Shown one piece after another: positions 78 through 7,936 of a DNA stretch of 64,000 nucleotides; within the stretch, counting starts at the first letter, position 1; every line of letters starts with the position of its first letter. Under the pieces are notes generated by a model. The model did not search any database, was not told the origin of the DNA, and was given only the letters and a program-made list of their open reading frames with translations. The position numbers and the translations under genes were made by a program. The stretch is taken from assembly GCA_902826615.1 (NCBI GenBank), contig CADEFN010000006.1:1-64000 (forward strand), in the 5' to 3' direction. Source of the DNA: an uncultured Gemmatimonadota bacterium (lineage in GTDB: Bacteria > Gemmatimonadota > Gemmatimonadetes > Gemmatimonadales > Gemmatimonadaceae).

Positions 78-213
78 CGCTAACAAGCGGCTGCATGCTG
101 ACGGGCCGTCAGGGGCCGGCGGCCCCGCCCGGGCAGCGGTAGACTATGAAAGAGGCAGCCCGGGCGGGTCGGCTTGTATTCAGATAGCCCGCAAGTGAAC
201 GCGGGCGTTGAGG
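78..213 (+). other. Integron attC-like recombination site 1
   Basis: A 136-bp imperfect palindrome with the four-box layout of an integron attC site read on the + strand. The left arm is GCTAACAAGCGGCTGCA (79-95). The right arm is GCAAGTGAACG (191-201) followed by the core GTTGAGG (207-213), which matches GTTRRRY at six of seven bases. The GGCTGCA and TGAAC boxes pair apart from an unpaired G, the feature that sets attC strand choice. The centre is a perfect 11-bp GC stem (124-134 with 158-168) around a 23-nt loop. Loop (GCGGTAGACTA) and right arm nearly repeat in site 2 at 3340-3479, as expected for sites of one chromosomal integron. The R'' box (CGCTAAC) fits RYYYAAC only in part. No integrase gene is in the window. 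Confidence 0.6.
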
Positions 214-349
214 ATGTAGAAAAAGCCAGTTCGCGCGCGGGAGGACGCCGGGAACGGGCGGCGCGCGCGGAGGTGAAGGGAGTTGGCGCTCCAGTGGTGG
301 TCCAGGCGACCTCGGGGCGATGCCGCGACAGGCGACGGGCTCCCGATGC

Positions 350-832
350 TTAGGCCGCGTAGCCCGCGTTCGCCAGCTTTTCGATGTTGTGCACCAGTCA
401 GAAGAGCCGCCACTGCCCCTCGACCTTGGCGCGGCCCCGCAGGTTGAAGCGATCCAGCCCCTTGTCGTAGCGCAGCTACGCGAAGACCGGCTCCACCGTC
501 GCAAACCGCCGCCCATACCGCGCCCGCTCGTGGGGCTGATCAATCCGCCGCTTCATCCGGGCGGTGTGTGTCTGCGGCGCCGACGTGGCCCGCCCGCGAA
601 AGAACGCCACCTGCCGCGGGGTCGCTTGCATGGGATCCCGTAGACACCGTCCCGCAACCCACACGCCCCGCAGTCCCGCTTCGTTCCGCGGAATTGTTCC
701 GACACAAACCCGCGCGTGATATTGGCGGACCCCTTCCGAATTTAAGAACTTCCCCGCCGGACACACACACGTCCGCGCGACCGGATCATACTGGGGGCGG
801 CTCAACCACGGCATGTAGGTCGAAATGGACAT
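350..832 (-). pseudogene. Decayed IS1182-type transposase, C-terminal fragment
   Basis: The minus-strand reading matches the C-terminal third of IS1182-family DDE transposases: a YDPVARTCVCPAGK Cys-rich entry, then CLRDP, RQVAFFRGRA, MKRRID, RRFATVEPVFA, LDRFNLRGRAKV, GQWRLF and LVHNIEKLANAGY. Two in-frame stops break it: TAG at 476-478, where the family has Asn after VFA, and a TGA after QWRLF where Cys is expected. The frame ends at TAA 350-352. About 160 codons remain of a protein normally well over 400 residues, so the N-terminal part is missing beyond 832. Bases 214-349 look like the non-coding end of the same element. It lies in antisense orientation inside the proposed cassette, between attC-like site 1 and the ParB-like gene. 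Not functional. Confidence 0.82.
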
Positions 833-967
833 TCATCCGCGACGAGGAGCCATGGGAGCTGGGAAGCCCTTTCAGCGCCGGTGGCGCTAAACCGTCGCTC
901 AACGATGCACAACGGCTTGCGAGCAGCAGAGGCTCGCGGTCAATTACTGCGCTGAGACGCAGGAACG

Positions 968-2338
968 ATGGCGAACCCCTGCACCTGCCCCTTCTCCGTG
1001 CCCAAACTCAAATCGATCTCACTCGCGAACCTACGCGTGGATCAGCTGAATCCACGACTTGCAGATCCGCGGCCAACATCGCAAGCGGAAACACTGGAAG
1101 CGATCGCTCGTTGGGACGAAAGAAAGTTGCTTGCCATTGCGAAGCACATTCAAGCTAGCGGGCTCGACCCGTCCAGCTTGCCCATCGTCATGCAGGAAGG
1201 CGCGAGGAGCCAGTTCTACGTTGTTCTCGAAGGCAACCGCCGAATTACAGCGGCCAAGGCCTTGGGCAATCCTGACCTAGTTCGCAGTGGCATGAGTGAC
1301 GGCACCCATCGAGCACTTAGGGCGCTTCCATCGCGCACAATCGACGACGTAATGTGCGTCGTCGTTAAGACGCGCGAGGAGGCGCGCCCGTGGATCGAGC
1401 TAAGGCATCAGGGCGAACAGGGTGGCGCGGGACTCATTCCTTGGCTCAGCATGGAGGCCGCGCGATTCGCGGAGCAGTCCGGCGGGAGGCCCAGCTACGG
1501 TCTCAGAGCCATGCGCTTCCTGGCGGAGGCAGGAGCGCTCGACGAGGCGACAGAGGGGCTAATCAAGAAAGGGTTCCCGTTGACGACGCTTGAGCGATTG
1601 CTGAACAGCCCAGACATTCGACGAGTGATCGGACTTTCCAAGGACAAGGGCGACTGGGTGGCACACTTTCCCGACGCCGAAGTTGCCAAGCCGCTGCGGC
1701 GTATCGTGTCTGACCTCGCACACAAACACATCAAGGTCTCTCACGTTGACGACGTCGAGCTGATGAAGAAGTACATCGGCAAGTTCAAGACGTCAGACCT
1801 GCCCGATCCATCGACGCGAAAGACCGCTCCACACGCGCTCGGCACGGATCCAAAGGCTGGGCCGCGGAAGGCAAAGAGAGCGAAGAAGGCGCGCCGCTCA
1901 CATGAGCGAGTGGCGTGGGTGCCCGCAGGATTCAGCCTCAGTATTGCGGACAAGCGGTGTAGCAACATCTTCATCGAACTCCAAGAGCTTAGAATCGAGA
2001 AGTTTAGGAACTCCGGGGCCGTGCTGAGTCGTGTCTTCCTCGAACTCAGTCTCGATCACTACCTCGCCCGCGACGGCTTCTGGAATCAGCAGAAGATCGA
2101 CAATTCGAAACTGCGCGATAAGATGACAGCCACGGCGATTAAGCTGAACGGCCTGGGTATGCTGACCACCAACGAGCTCAAGGCCATTCAACGTGCGGCA
2201 AAGGATGATGCGCGCCTCGCTCCGATGATTACAACCTTCAATGGGTACATCCACAGCTCGAAGATGGTCCCGATCGTCGGCGACCTGAACAGCGAGTGGG
2301 AAGTGCTCGCTCCACTCTTTTCTGCGATCTGGCCTTAG
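968..2338 (+). CDS. ParB/sulfiredoxin-fold domain protein paired with Dam
   Basis: 456 residues. Residues 17-100 have ParB/Srx N-terminal domain features: an LRVDQLNPR entry strand, an IAKHIQASG helix, and YVVLEGNRRITAAKAL with the GNRR box at 89-92, which binds or hydrolyses nucleotide in this fold. No partition-type helix-turn-helix, partner ParA or parS site is visible. A basic linker (GPRKAKRAKKARR, about residues 297-309) separates an unrecognised C-terminal domain. The start ATG has AGGA five bases upstream. It ends two bases before the methyltransferase start, so the two are almost surely one transcript. ParB-fold proteins of this kind occur in phage and defence islands; the pairing with an adenine methyltransferase suggests DNA modification or defence, but that role is inferred. 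Confidence 0.72.
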   Translation: MANPCTCPFSVPKLKSISLANLRVDQLNPRLADPRPTSQAETLEAIARWDERKLLAIAKHIQASGLDPSSLPIVMQEGARSQFYVVLEGNRRITAAKALGNPDLVRSGMSDGTHRALRALPSRTIDDVMCVVVKTREEARPWIELRHQGEQGGAGLIPWLSMEAARFAEQSGGRPSYGLRAMRFLAEAGALDEATEGLIKKGFPLTTLERLLNSPDIRRVIGLSKDKGDWVAHFPDAEVAKPLRRIVSDLAHKHIKVSHVDDVELMKKYIGKFKTSDLPDPSTRKTAPHALGTDPKAGPRKAKRAKKARRSHERVAWVPAGFSLSIADKRCSNIFIELQELRIEKFRNSGAVLSRVFLELSLDHYLARDGFWNQQKIDNSKLRDKMTATAIKLNGLGMLTTNELKAIQRAAKDDARLAPMITTFNGYIHSSKMVPIVGDLNSEWEVLAPLFSAIWP

Positions 2339-2340
2339 CC

Positions 2341-3234
2341 GTGGCTCCCACCGACCCGCATGTCAGCCCGCTTCGGTATCCCGGCGGGAAGAGCAAGCTC
2401 GCGAAGTTCGTTCAGCTACTCTTCCGCACGAACGACTTGCTTGATGGTCAGTACGCTGAACCCTATGCGGGCGGGGCGAGTGTCGCGCTGACGCTTGCGC
2501 TTAGCGAATACGCGTCCGTCGTGCACATCAACGACCTCGATCGATCAATTTGGGCCTTCTGGCACGCTGTGCTTTGGGATACAGAAGCACTTTGCGCACG
2601 CATCAGCGCAAGGCGTGTGTCGATGGCAGAGTGGCGCCGACAACGAGCGGTGCAATCCGACTCAGCCGCAGCCGACCCGCTGGATCTTGCCTTCTCAACC
2701 TTCTTCCTCAACCGCACCAACCGATCGGGCATCATCGCCAGTGGCGGTGTGATCGGCGGCTTGGCGCAGGAGAGCGAGTGGGGGATTGATGCGCGCTACA
2801 ATAAGCGAGCACTGATCCAGCGCATCGAGCGGATTGCGCGCTATCGCGATCGAATTCGCATCACCAGGCTGGACGCGTCAACGTTCGTGGCGCGCATGAG
2901 AGAGAAGCTTCCCCTGCGATCGCTAACCTATCTTGATCCACCATATTTCGTGAAGGGACAGCGGCGGCTCTATGCCAACTACTATCGTCCGGAGGATCAC
3001 GCTGCGATCGCGGATCAACTGAAAACCTTTGACCGGCCGTGGATCGTGTCATATGACAGCGCGCCAGAGATTCTTGACCTCTACCGGCGATACCGAACGA
3101 CGAAGTACGCACTGCGCTACAGCGCTGCATCGCGCTACAGAGGGTCCGAAGTAATGGTGTTCGCACCCAAGCTCAAGGTGCCGAAGCTTCTGCCGCCTGA
3201 GGTCACCGACAGCGACATTGCAAGTGTCGCCTGA
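2341..3234 (+). CDS. Dam-type (D12 class) N6-adenine DNA methyltransferase
   Basis: 297 residues from a GTG start at 2341, just after the upstream TAG; no better ATG exists before the conserved N-terminus. Family motifs of the D12/MethyltransfD12 class are present: RYPGGKSKL (residues 12-20), AEPYAGGAS (about 39-47, AdoMet binding) and DPPY (199-202, catalytic). Length is normal for Dam homologues (about 270-300). It would transfer a methyl group from AdoMet to N6 of adenine; specificity (GATC or other) cannot be read here. No restriction endonuclease lies beside it. Its partner is the ParB-fold gene, and both lie in the direction expected for an integron cassette ending at site 2 (3340-3479). 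Could be an orphan methylase, the protective half of a defence pair, or a phage remnant. Confidence 0.88.
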   Translation: MAPTDPHVSPLRYPGGKSKLAKFVQLLFRTNDLLDGQYAEPYAGGASVALTLALSEYASVVHINDLDRSIWAFWHAVLWDTEALCARISARRVSMAEWRRQRAVQSDSAAADPLDLAFSTFFLNRTNRSGIIASGGVIGGLAQESEWGIDARYNKRALIQRIERIARYRDRIRITRLDASTFVARMREKLPLRSLTYLDPPYFVKGQRRLYANYYRPEDHAAIADQLKTFDRPWIVSYDSAPEILDLYRRYRTTKYALRYSAASRYRGSEVMVFAPKLKVPKLLPPEVTDSDIASVA

Positions 3235-3339
3235 AGCGAACTTGCGGCTCAGGCCTGACCGGGCCCGGCTCACGTGCCTCCGCCTGTGCGAGGAATGCCG
3301 CGTTCCCAAGTCAAGGTAGGCCTCCGCTCATGCTACGCG

Positions 3340-3479
3340 GCCTAACAACCCGTTGCGATTGGCGGACCTCTTCGAGGTCTGGCCGACCCGCCCGGTCCGC
3401 GGTAGACTACTCAGGAACGCGGCCCGGGCGGGTCGACCCCGTGTTTACCCGGTCCGCAAGTGAACGGAAAACGTTGACC
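3340..3479 (+). other. Integron attC-like recombination site 2
   Basis: A 140-bp site with the same architecture as site 1. R'' is GCCTAAC (3340-3346, full match to RYYYAAC). L'' GTTGCGATTGGCGGACC (3352-3368) pairs with L' GGTCCGCAAGTGAAC (3451-3465) except for two unpaired bases in the left arm, and R' is GTTGACC (3473-3479, six of seven bases of GTTRRRY). The centre is a 17-bp stem (3385-3401 with 3418-3434, one mismatch) around a loop starting GTAGACTA, shared with site 1. It sits 105 bp after the methyltransferase stop, the normal place for attC at the end of a cassette. Not a simple terminator: there is no T run and the outer boxes also pair. Confidence 0.68.
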
Positions 3480-4040
3480 AAGGGAGGTCGTTGGGTGGGA
3501 CGGAACCGGCGCAAGCGGTCGAAGCCAGCGACCCCTACGACACCTTGAGCAGTCCTGCCTCCAGTCGCGGATCCGGACGTACAGCCTTTTCATCGCAAGC
3601 ACTATGTGACCGCTTTCTGGGCGATCATGTCTGGGCTTGTGCTCTTTCCGCTTGGCGTCGCTTGGGAGCGTGTTCGAGGTCCGGAGGGCGTTGTAATCCT
3701 GAATCCGGATACGACGGCCCGCATTGTCGTGGTTGCCGACAGCGCGCAGCGAGAGCTGATCTCGGGCGTTCTCGAAGAGATGCGATCACTGCGGCTCCAG
3801 TCACGCCAAGAGCTTCGCTCCAACCGCTCGTCCGAGCCCACTCCGCAGTCGACTACGTCATCGCTGTCCGCGATGCCAGCGGTCGCGCCCGCATCCGTGT
3901 CTGCCTATCCGTTCCCAAGCGGCGTGAAGGGATACCTCATGCGCGACTTTGGATCCTTCGGGAATGTCCGCTGCGGACCCTCAGCCCACAGACCTGGGGC
4001 AGAAGCGTTCTTCGAGGTATCCCTTCGCACTGCTTCGGAT

Positions 4041-4045
4041 ACATC
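4041..4045. repeat. Target site duplication ACATC (second copy 6418-6422)
   Basis: ACATC lies directly before the left end of the IS21-family element and again directly after its right end (6418-6422). A short duplication of 4-8 bp is usual for IS21. An unmutated pair implies a fairly recent, simple insertion without later rearrangement. Confidence 0.85.
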
Positions 4046-4101
4046 TGTAGATGAACACCCAAATTCCCGCAGCGCTGAACAGGCAAATTCCCGCACCTGC
4101 C
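4046..4101 (+). repeat. IS21 left end; inverted partner at 6361-6417
   Basis: The left terminus holds ACACCCAAATTCCCGCAG (4056-4073) and AGGCAAATTCCCGCACCTGC (4081-4100). The right terminus carries the same two blocks inverted. The spacers between blocks differ in sequence and by one base. These are the expected transposase-binding repeats of an IS21 element. Confidence 0.85.
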
Positions 4102-4156
4102 ATTGACGGGAGCGCCCCTCGGCGGTCCCCCTTCGCACCTGGGCGAAACGCAGCCC

Positions 4157-5482
4157 ATGGCCCCCAGCGCGGAGGACTCGATGGCACGGCTGCGGAGAGA
4201 TCAGGTGATGATTGCGCAGGAGATGGTGGCCCGCGACGTCCCGGTGCGGCAGGTCGCCCGGCAGCTCGGGGTGGACGAATCGAGTCTGCGGTATCGGCTG
4301 GGGCGGACGCTGGATGCGCCGGACGGCCGGCAGGAGCGGCCCTCGGTCCTGGACGGCTGGGACGCGCGGGTGGACGCGGTCTTGGCGCGCTTCGATGATC
4401 CCCGGCTGCGGGGCGCGGGCGAGGCGGCGGTCGACACGACGGTGGTGCATGCGGTGCTGCAGCGCGACTTTGGCTTTCGGGGGAGCTACCAGTCGGTGCG
4501 GCGGTACTTGATGCGGCGCTTCCCAGCCCCGGTGCAGGCGATCCGCCGGGTGGAAACGCCCCCGGGCGTGCAGGCCCAGCATGACTGGTTTGAGTGGACC
4601 ACGCGCGTGGCGGGGGTGGTGCAGCCGGTCTTTGGCCTGATCGGGACACTGTCGCACTCGCGGGCGAGCTTTGTCTGGGTGAGCCCGCGGATGCACCAGC
4701 TGGCGTGGCAGACGGGGCACCTGGCCCTGTTTGCGCGGTATGGCGGGGTGCCGCTCTGGGTGCGGATCGATAACCTCAAGACGGGCGTCGCGTCGGGGGC
4801 CGGGCCGACGGCGGTGCTGGCGCCGGCGTTTGCGACCTTTGCCCGCACCTGCGGGTTTGGGGTGGACCCGTGCCGGGCCGCCCGTGGGAGTGACAAGGGG
4901 AAGACGGAGCGGAGCGTCCGCTCGGTCCGGAGCGTCTACGCCGATCTGTTCGTGACGCCGTGGGCGGATCTTGCCACGCTGCAGGCGGCGCTGGATGCCC
5001 GGAGTGCGGCGGTGCAGGCCGTGCGCCGGTGTCCGGTCACCGGCACCCCGATCGCGGAGGCCTTGGCGGCGGAGCGGGCGCTGCTGCAGCCCCTGCCGGC
5101 CCTGCAGGAGCTCTTTGATTGTGTCGTCGTCCGGCGGGTCAGTCGGGATGGCCTGGTGAGTTTTGAGGGGCGGCGCTACTCGGTCCCCTTCGCCTGGGTC
5201 ACGCGACAGGTCGAAGTGCGGGGCACGGCCCAGCATGTCGTGTGTTATGCAGAGGGCCAGGAAATCGCGCGGCATCTGCGCGGCACGCGGCACACCCTGG
5301 TGCTGGAGCCGACGCACTATGAGGGGGCGAGCACGGCGCATGTGTGGGCGCCGACCCCGCTCGGGCGGCGTGCCCGACTCCAGCTGGGGGCGGTGCCCCA
5401 CACGGCGGCGCTGCCGGCGCCGGAGGCCGTGGAGCGGCCCCTGGCGCACTACCTCACGCTCTTGGGGAGGGCCGGCACATGA
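4157..5482 (+). CDS. istA: IS21-family transposase IstA
   Basis: 441 residues from ATG 4157; the frame is open from 4103, but that start would sit at the edge of the terminal repeat. An N-terminal helix-turn-helix (VRQVARQLGVDESSLRYRL) is followed by a DDE integrase core: Asp143 in QHDWFEW, Asp205 in RIDNLK and Glu251 in SDKGKTER, giving D-62-D-46-E spacing. The C-terminal Mu-type beta domain contains FEGRRYSVP. It catalyses strand transfer of the element and needs the IstB ATPase. Its stop overlaps the istB start (ATGA). Translation reads without breaks, so it is probably functional. Confidence 0.92.
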   Translation: MAPSAEDSMARLRRDQVMIAQEMVARDVPVRQVARQLGVDESSLRYRLGRTLDAPDGRQERPSVLDGWDARVDAVLARFDDPRLRGAGEAAVDTTVVHAVLQRDFGFRGSYQSVRRYLMRRFPAPVQAIRRVETPPGVQAQHDWFEWTTRVAGVVQPVFGLIGTLSHSRASFVWVSPRMHQLAWQTGHLALFARYGGVPLWVRIDNLKTGVASGAGPTAVLAPAFATFARTCGFGVDPCRAARGSDKGKTERSVRSVRSVYADLFVTPWADLATLQAALDARSAAVQAVRRCPVTGTPIAEALAAERALLQPLPALQELFDCVVVRRVSRDGLVSFEGRRYSVPFAWVTRQVEVRGTAQHVVCYAEGQEIARHLRGTRHTLVLEPTHYEGASTAHVWAPTPLGRRARLQLGAVPHTAALPAPEAVERPLAHYLTLLGRAGT

Positions 5483-6357
5483 CCAAACCCCAACGCGCGG
5501 CAGCGGCGCCCGATGCGCCGCCCCGGGCGCTCCCCCTCGGGCGCGGCACGAGCACCCTCGATCCGGTGATCGAGAAGCTGCGCGCCCTCAACCTGGAGTA
5601 TCCCGCCACGGCGCTTCCCGAACTCGTGGAGCAGGCCGCCCGCGAGGAGCTGAGTCCGCTCGCATTTCTGGATCTGCTCCTCACCGGCCAGCTGGAGCGG
5701 AAGGATGAACGGCGCGTGAGCACCATGCTCAAGCTCTCGGGGCTCCCGCCGGGCAAGACCCTCGACGCCTTCGACTGGGGCTTCCAGCCCAAGGCCGACC
5801 GGCGGCAGATCGAGGCGCTCTCCACGTGCCAGTATCTGCGGGAGAAGACCAACGTCCTGTTTTTGGGTCCGCCGGGGGTGGGCAAGTCGCATCTGTCGAC
5901 CGCGTTAGGCGTGCAAGCCATCAAGAACGGCTTTAGTGTCGCCCATTTCGTGCTCGACGATCTGATGCATGTCCTCAAGGCCGATGCCGCCACGCCGCCC
6001 GCGCGGCTCCGGGCCCGCCGGTACTTCAACTGCGGGCTGCTGATCATCGACGAACTCGGCTTCCGGCCACTCGACCGGATGGAGGCGAACCTCTTCTTCC
6101 GGCTCGTCTCCGCGCGGTACGAACGGGGCTCGATGCTCCTCACCTCCAACAAACACGTCCGCGACTGGCCGGAGATCTTTGCCGGGGACGAGATCCTGAC
6201 CACGGCGATCCTGGACCGGCTGCTCCATCACGTCGCGGTCGTCCACATCGACGGGCAGAGCTACCGGCTCCGGCAACTCGGGGCGCTGCTCAGCACGCCG
6301 CCGCTGCGCTCGACCGACGGGCCCAGCAAAGGATCAACGGAAGGACCGACCAACTGA
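5479..6357 (+). CDS. istB: IS21-family helper ATPase IstB
   Basis: 292 residues, starting at the ATG that overlaps the istA stop, with GGAGGG upstream. It is a DnaC-like AAA+ ATPase: Walker A GPPGVGKSH (about residues 130-138), Walker B LLIIDELGF (about 187-195), and SARYERGSMLLTSNK as the sensor region. It assists IstA in target selection and strand transfer. Length is somewhat above the 250-265 residues common in the family because of a Pro/Ala-rich N-terminal extension; an internal start at about residue 40 would give the usual size. It contains one CGTTAGGC heptamer (5903-5910), so the motif also occurs in mobile DNA here. Confidence 0.92.
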   Translation: MTKPQRAAAAPDAPPRALPLGRGTSTLDPVIEKLRALNLEYPATALPELVEQAAREELSPLAFLDLLLTGQLERKDERRVSTMLKLSGLPPGKTLDAFDWGFQPKADRRQIEALSTCQYLREKTNVLFLGPPGVGKSHLSTALGVQAIKNGFSVAHFVLDDLMHVLKADAATPPARLRARRYFNCGLLIIDELGFRPLDRMEANLFFRLVSARYERGSMLLTSNKHVRDWPEIFAGDEILTTAILDRLLHHVAVVHIDGQSYRLRQLGALLSTPPLRSTDGPSKGSTEGPTN

Positions 6358-6658
6358 CCCGGCAGGTGCGGGAATTTGCCTGTCAATCCACTGCGGGAAT
6401 TTGGGTGTACTTGCACAACATCCCGGCTCTCGCCACTCTTTGTCAGAATTGCGCGTCGGCAGCCAGGACAGGGCGGAGTACAGCTGTTCGAGCAGAAGTA
6501 CCAGCTCTCTGCGGCATCCCTTCTCGCTTTACCGATGCCCGCGACTGCTGGCAGCTACGAAATCGATATTGGGGTCTACGTGACCTCCGAGCTCGAGACC
6601 ACGTACCCGCCATTCTACCATCGGACTTGCAGCGTGAGTGTCGTTGAGTAGCGCGGCA

Positions 6659-6727
6659 ACATAACGACAGTTGGTGCAGATGGCCGCCAACCCGCATCCA
6701 TTTGAACGGCCACAGCACAACTTGACG
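6659..6727 (+). other. Possible short attC-like site 3
   Basis: A 69-bp imperfect palindrome starting eight bases after the stop of the interrupted cassette gene. ACATAAC (6659-6665) fits RYYYAAC at six of seven bases. GTTGGTGCAGATGGCC (6670-6685) pairs with GGCCACAGCACAAC (6708-6721), leaving unpaired bases in the left arm, as in attC sites. The right core (CTTGACG) fits GTTRRRY poorly, and the site shares no loop sequence with sites 1 and 2. It may be a degenerate terminal attC or just a hairpin. The next 150 bp (6728-6878) show no convincing gene. Confidence 0.35.
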
Positions 6728-6878
6728 TCATGCAGCCTCGCTATGGAGGTGCCTGTGGACGAGAGGATCATAGAGACCATCCGAGCACGTGACCGGCTTG
6801 CCCGTGCTGGATTTGCCGCAACAGAAAGACGCCGGCGGCGCCCAAGCCTACAGAGGTGTAGCGATGCAGCGACCTGCG

Positions 6879-6913: not shown

Positions 6914-7936
6914 CTACGCCGACTTGTATTTCTCGAGCACTTCGGTGACGAGTTTGTCGGCACCAAAACCCTCGGCTTCAGCCTGGAAGTTCATGACCAG
7001 ACGGTGCCGGATGACCGACATCGCAATCGCGCGCACATCTTCGATGTCGGGAACCGAGCGGCCGTCCATGGCGGCGCGAGCCTTGGCACCCAGCACCAGA
7101 TACTGTGAGGCACGTGGGCCGGTGCCGTAGTTGATGTACTTGCGGATGTTCGGACCCGTCCCGGGTTCGCTGGGCCGAGTGGCGCGTGCCAGACCGACGC
7201 AGTACTTCACGATGGTCGGAGGCGCCGGCATGCGACGTACGAGCTGCTGCAGTTCCGAGACTTCATTGCCGCTCAGCACCGGTTCGATGCGGACATCCGC
7301 AGCGCCGGTGGTGGAGTTGACGATCTGTTCTTCCTCTTCAAACGACGGATAGCCTACCCGCAGCTCGAACATGAAGCGGTCGAGCTGGGCTTCCGGCAGC
7401 GGATATGTCGCTTCCTGTTCGATGGGGTTCTGCGTGGCGAGCACGAAGAACGGATTCGGGAGTCGATGGGTCTGCCCGGCCACGGTGACGGTTTTTTCCT
7501 GCATGGCCTGCAGCAGCGCCGACTGGGTTTTTGGCGGGGCGCGGTTGATTTCGTCGGCAAGGACGACGTTCGCGAACACGGGGCCCTTCACAAACTTGAA
7601 GACCCGTCGGCCGGTGGCGTGATCCTCTTCGAGGAGCTCGGTGCCGGTGATGTCACCAGGCATCAGGTCGGGCGTGAACTGCACACGCGAGAACTGGAGG
7701 TCGAGGGCTTCAGCCAGGGTCTGGATGAGCAGGGTCTTGGCGAGTCCTGGCACACCGACGATGACCACGTGGCCACCGGCGAGAATGGCGCAAACCAGGT
7801 TTTCGACGACATCGGTCTGGCCGATGATCTTTCGCCCGATTTGCTGCATGAGAGACTTGCGGGAGACCGCGAGCTTCTTGAGGAGCTCAAGATCTCGCGA
7901 ATCGGTAGTCGTGCGTGCGTTGGCGGAAGTCCCCAC
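6914..7936 (-). CDS. MoxR-family AAA+ ATPase
   Basis: 340 residues, the usual MoxR length. Walker A is GVPGLAKT (61-68), the family's variant with Ala-Lys-Thr. Walker B is VVLADEINRAPPK (124-136), followed by KTQSALLQAMQE and a polar loop with FFVLATQNPIEQEATYPLPEAQLDRF. The C-terminal lid domain ends at ADKLVTEVLEKY. MoxR proteins act as chaperone-like ATPases, often beside a DUF58 and a VWA-domain gene; neither is here. The next gene upstream is a BsuPI-like lipoprotein on the same strand. An internal ATG at residue 30 is a less likely start because the N-terminal helix is conserved in the family. Confidence 0.92.
   Translation of the reverse strand: MGTSANARTTTDSRDLELLKKLAVSRKSLMQQIGRKIIGQTDVVENLVCAILAGGHVVIVGVPGLAKTLLIQTLAEALDLQFSRVQFTPDLMPGDITGTELLEEDHATGRRVFKFVKGPVFANVVLADEINRAPPKTQSALLQAMQEKTVTVAGQTHRLPNPFFVLATQNPIEQEATYPLPEAQLDRFMFELRVGYPSFEEEEQIVNSTTGAADVRIEPVLSGNEVSELQQLVRRMPAPPTIVKYCVGLARATRPSEPGTGPNIRKYINYGTGPRASQYLVLGAKARAAMDGRSVPDIEDVRAIAMSVIRHRLVMNFQAEAEGFGADKLVTEVLEKYKSA

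Follow-up and report, generated by a model that had tools for sequence, protein, structure and literature searches.

A probable array end of a sedentary chromosomal integron in a Gemmatimonadota bacterium, with a PD-Lambda-5 pair in one cassette

Integron biology is largely based on Vibrio and on clinical integrons, in which the integrase gene is divergent from its cassettes. Reverse-oriented integrons are known from Treponema, and integrases related to those of Treponema have been reported in Blastopirellula, Chlorobium and others (PMC3607928); reverse orientation has been noted for Spirochaetota in general (PMC9668308). A review names Gemmatimonadota among the integron hosts (PMC8618304), and no paper naming Gemmatimonas aurantiaca and integrons together was found in the open-access collection searched. 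An earlier reading made from the letters of the DNA alone (the sequence-only reading) had called integrons little described in this lineage, which is fair. Here we analyze a window of 64,000 nucleotides (positions 1-64000 of contig C6, base 1 being the contig end) from a Gemmatimonadota genome of 5.92 Mb in 98 contigs, 99.1% complete. Named Gemmatimonadota occur among the relatives of its integrase, and the family is probably Gemmatimonadaceae. We conclude, with a probability of about 93%, that the first 6.7 kb of the window belong to a sedentary chromosomal integron, where they form the distal end of a cassette array. This type of integron is already known and is poorly described in this phylum.

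Like the sedentary chromosomal integrons of Vibrio and Xanthomonas, the genome has an IntI of the TIGR02249 family, an attI site, many lineage-typical attC sites (about 134 bp) and mostly one-directional cassettes of about 0.6-1.5 kb. Unlike in those integrons, intI here reads towards the array, one genome contains several arrays plus an additional truncated platform, and a cassette of 564 bp is present in many copies. Transcription of intI towards its array is shared with the reverse-oriented integrons of Treponema, from which the present system differs in phylum and in its GC-rich attC family, whose main class measures 134-142 bp.

attC sites, integrase and attI

A home-made covariance model of the attC sites (R1) was built from nine sites on five contigs of the genome. 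Mean column identity in the nine-site alignment was 78%, and with the R stem added 95.2% of the cells were paired; when the partner was shifted by one base, pairing fell to 47% or less. Changes on both sides were seen in 12 pairs, compared to a shuffle mean of 6.2 (0 of 500 shuffles as high). The tandem sites have RYYYAAC/GTTRRRY cores, an imperfect palindrome and extra-helical bases on one arm. Asymmetric extra-helical bases determine the strand choice in attC sites; here the bulges fall in the bottom strand's 3' arm (alignment columns 121 and 129, plus 125 in some sites), and the bottom strand scored better than the top strand by tens of bits.

After de-duplication R1 yielded 62 sites in the array regions, the weak window site included, which is far above chance (E down to 1e-37). 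Their lengths range from 72 to 198 bp, with 132-142 bp as the main class, and they lie on C1, C2, C3, C4, C6, C8, C10, C14 and C16 and on the small contigs C29, C34-36, C40 and C43, many of them on small contigs and at contig ends. The covariance-model check proposed in the sequence-only reading thus came out positive, returning a large site family that shares the loop. The cassettes are mostly one-directional: the longest open reading frame (ORF) reads in cassette direction in 32 of the 45 inter-site units, and several of the exceptions are long intervals or carry an insertion sequence (IS).

The sequence-only reading was right in kind when it proposed the end of a chromosomal integron array; the attC family, intI and attI are all found in the genome. 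It had listed three related attC-like sites, the first two with a common loop and right arm. These two have the coordinates and sequences that were claimed, score highly (Table 1) and fold on the bottom strand better than shuffles (z = -3.2 for site 1 and -4.0 for site 2), whereas the third is weak. The motif GTAGACTA..CCGCAAGTGAACG occurred 4 times in 5.9 Mb, compared to 0 for a reversed-pattern control, and an Rfam search of the window gave no match. The unit between sites 1 and 2 (cassette 1-2) is the next-to-last collected unit of the array. The unit between sites 2 and 3, expected to be of normal cassette size without its IS, measures about 0.88 kb once the IS21 element is subtracted.

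The integrase had been placed to the left of the window. A full-length intI does exist in the genome; it lies on another contig, C2 (944353-945327, near the contig end), and the window begins at the end of its own. The encoded full-length IntI of 324 aa matches TIGR02249 (402 bits vs. a cut-off of 265) and has R140, H271, R274, H297 and Y306 in place, which we take to be catalytic from what is known of IntI1. The gene is transcribed towards its own attI (L012:17562-17680) and array, and is followed on its 3' side by about 340 bp of noncoding DNA, the core AATAGTTAGGC, an ORF of 172 aa, an attC (the best R1 match) and the contig end. A second intI on C16 lacks its first 85 codons; the remaining 239 aa are 99% identical to the C2 copy. 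The two platforms share 97.2% identity over 1041 bp and part exactly after AATAGTTA. Because they agree up to AATAGTTA and differ beyond it, this point marks attI and fixes the crossover to within a few bases, as would be expected of two attI sites with different first cassettes. In the C16 platform (locus L013:10600-11753), which has its own attI and cassettes, an apparent MazF-family gene precedes the truncated intI.

The C2 integrase is presumably active and acting on the window sites. It would cleave attC at the GTT core, acting on the folded bottom strand, and join cassettes to attI. With attI behind the 3' end of intI, integrase and cassettes are transcribed in the same direction.

The PD-Lambda-5 cassette and competing explanations

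Cassette 1-2 contains two adjacent genes that are full-length PADLOC matches to subunits A and B of PD-Lambda-5 (Table 1), the two genes of that system. The cassette is predicted to encode a complete PD-Lambda-5 anti-phage pair, which by homology would defend its host against phages. PD-Lambda-5 was discovered by functional selection in E. coli, where it protected against most of the phages tested, and has been described as a compact prophage form of a restriction-modification plus abortive infection system (PMC9519451). Its descriptions come mainly from prophages (PMC9519451, PMC12824646). In the short flanks that were searched, relatives of the pair in other Gemmatimonadaceae (34-37% identity) had no R1 attC. 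ORFs in other cassettes of the genome (loci L062-L073) match AriAB, PtuA, DrmC, AbiU2 and BrnT models, so defence-like and toxin-antitoxin genes recur in the cassettes; ORFs of these loci also match methyltransferases, VIT1 and a beta-lactamase-fold family. As in the integron-borne anti-phage cassettes of Vibrio and Xanthomonas (PMC12409362, PMC12444791), a defence set is found inside an attC-bounded unit; the system here is PD-Lambda-5 and the host belongs to Gemmatimonadota. PD-Lambda-5 would join the anti-phage systems known from integron cassettes, and would do so in a phylum distant from Vibrio.

It is highly improbable that the repeats are IS ends or a palindrome family of the repetitive extragenic palindrome (REP) or bacterial interspersed mosaic element (BIME) type and not attC sites. 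They are numerous and palindromic, and an IS1182-family end adjoins site 1 and one other attC, but such an element is found at the core of only 2 of the 62 sites. Some 55 sites stand between unrelated ORFs at cassette spacing, the cores and the one-arm bulges occur together with intI and attI, and tandem arrays lie behind intI in relatives. Cassette-sized, ORF-bearing units between the sites, together with two platforms that part exactly at the attI core, excluded IS ends or a genome-wide REP family, the outcome that the sequence-only reading had named as its refutation. For the predicted defence pair, the alternative is that the methyltransferase encoded in 968-3234 is an ordinary orphan, its partner unrelated, and that no working defence system is present. 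Subunit B scores almost as high against a type II methyltransferase model (347 bits) and the A protein has no Pfam match, but both are full-length PD-Lambda-5 matches, adjacent and in the published order of the two-gene system, and we consider this alternative unlikely.

The distal-end reading itself has points that weigh against it. The nine training sequences included window sites 1 and 2, whose R1 scores are therefore in part built in; this does not apply to the roughly 50 sites outside the training set. Site 3 had no R1 match at default settings and is a degenerate terminal attC at best. Further, the window contig is not joined to the intI contig C2, no intI lies on C6 near the window array, where C6 is cut, and the genome has several array heads and tails. 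Heads, with cassettes reading off the contig end, are on C2 (with intI), C16 (with the truncated intI), C4 (right end) and C14; tails, with cassettes reading in from a contig start or end, are on C1, C6 (the window), C8 and C10. Since the window array begins at a contig end and several arrays exist, it is an array end without assignment to the intact intI. It may instead be a cluster of attC sites lacking an integrase (CALIN), apart from both intI copies and formed by off-target insertion or rearrangement, a possibility to which we give slightly less than even odds. Array ends outnumber intI genes in the genome, and the closed attC clusters C4:234538-244301 and C2:353579-358087 are fully assembled without intI; against this, the contigs break in repeats and C6 may directly follow the C2 array. 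The 564-bp cassette, with an attC of 197 bp, is present in full or partial copies at 17 places, mostly contig ends, and the termini of several array contigs have exact 55-bp matches in common, which indicates that the assembly broke in this repeat. Exact end overlaps used as a guide to contig order gave only branch points in the repeated cassette and no unique path. We consider the odds about even that the window array belongs directly to the intact C2 intI. The 564-bp cassette itself (C16:12668-13231 and 16 further copies, 73-95% identity) has a short ORF at most and an unusually long attC.

Orientation and prevalence of integrases in Gemmatimonadota

To avoid bias towards one layout, we examined both flanks of intI in 20 loci of relatives, covering about 9.5 kb per side unless the contig ended earlier. 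All 48 attC matches, from 13 of the 20 loci, were on the 3' side of intI with cassettes reading in the same direction as intI, and none was on the 5' side. R1 was trained on a reversed integron and may favour related sites, but it is blind to the position of intI. Among close relatives, 35 of 60 had an IntI above the curated cut-off; across Gemmatimonadota the share was 101 of 298 sampled genomes (34%), and none of 14 control genomes passed that threshold. The reported integron shares of 20% in Gamma- and 10% in Betaproteobacteria (PMC8618304) were obtained by different methods, and their comparison with 101/298 is rough.

In a quick tree of 101 integrases, one branch splits 20 reversed from 9 canonical loci (Shimodaira-Hasegawa-like approximate likelihood ratio test, 97), with 72 rows carrying no orientation label and the deeper forks unsettled. 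The layout label changes once on the tree (shuffled mean 7.9), the labels outside Gemmatimonadota resting on few loci from a home-made palindrome scan that is specific but insensitive. The reversed side takes in bins of Acidobacteriota, Rokubacteria, Krumholzibacteriota, Actinomycetota and Myxococcota. One Gemmatimonadota integrase (L139; Gemmatimonas phototrophica bin, CAMAVQ010000061.1) falls among the canonical-side integrases, possibly by transfer or binning error.

We give an even chance to the broader proposal that Gemmatimonadota are a major overlooked host phylum of reversed-integrase integrons, with a deep IntI branch, cassettes behind the integrase and several arrays per genome, storing anti-phage systems such as PD-Lambda-5. 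About one third of the sampled genomes of this abundant soil phylum have an integrase, and it faces the cassettes wherever these could be placed. If the proposal holds, first cassettes would need a promoter arrangement different from the textbook one. Whether reversed integrons rely on intI read-through, on a promoter within intI or attI, or on promoters carried by the cassettes becomes testable here. Specialists may find most of interest the reversed layout across the lineage, the presence of several arrays in one genome and the PD-Lambda-5 cassette.

Features of the window and insertion sequences at attC

Table 1. Features at the start of the window (R1 E-values refer to 9 kb).
Feature	Position	Strand	Basis
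attC site 1	78-213	+	R'' at 78, R' core GTTGAGG at 207-213; bottom strand folded and scored; R1 103.7 bits, E 5e-27
Cassette 1-2	208-3473	+	about 3.27 kb; contains IS1182 remnant, PD-Lambda-5 pair and attC site 2; bounds from two R' cores
IS1182-family remnant	214-793	-	abuts the R' core of site 1; transposase fragment 476-832 on minus strand; weak match to NF033551
PD-Lambda-5 subunit A homologue, 456 aa	968-2338	+	PADLOC PDLC04008, 367 bits, E 2.6e-110; residues 13-456 of 456 on profile 3-449 of 449
PD-Lambda-5 subunit B homologue, D12-class adenine methyltransferase, 297 aa	2341-3234	+	PADLOC PDLC04018, 381 bits, E 1.2e-114; PF02086, E 1.7e-14
attC site 2	3340-3479	+	R1 117.8 bits on bottom strand, E 7e-31
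Last cassette ORF, first part	3606-4045	+	ORF list; cut by the IS21 element
IS21-family insertion sequence	4046-6417	+	transposase 4103-5482, IstB helper in 5344-6357; NF033546 and NF038214 over cut-off
Site 3, weak degenerate terminal attC candidate	6659-6733	+	R1 21.7 bits, E 2.6e-4, filters off
First gene beyond the array	6914-7936	-	ORF list; opposite strand marks the array end

The IS21 element is bounded by a 5-bp direct repeat, ACATC, at 4041-4045 and 6418-6422, and its inverted ends match at 24 of 30 positions. The rest of the coding sequence that it interrupts is probably in 6418-6651; the ORF part at 3606-4045 had no Pfam, PADLOC or PHROG match. The product of the gene beyond the array is by inspection presumably a MoxR-like AAA ATPase.

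All plus-strand genes had been said to read toward the following site. This is so for the cassette genes, and 214-793 additionally holds the minus-strand IS1182-family transposase remnant, which, like the reversed integrase and the defence content of the cassette, was absent from the sequence-only reading. Positions 350-793 of the remnant are 79% identical to an intact IS1182-family copy at C4:238265-240049 (L014:13266-15050).

The IS1111-attC group of the IS110 family consists of IS elements targeting attC. The IS1182-family element may be an attC-targeting IS outside that group; it resembles the group in sitting at the attC core in one fixed orientation, and differs in family and in having been seen in two cases only. 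The remnant and the C4 copy share their left end and occupy the same position, in the same orientation, next to the R' cores of two separate attC sites. CGTT stands on either side of the C4 copy.
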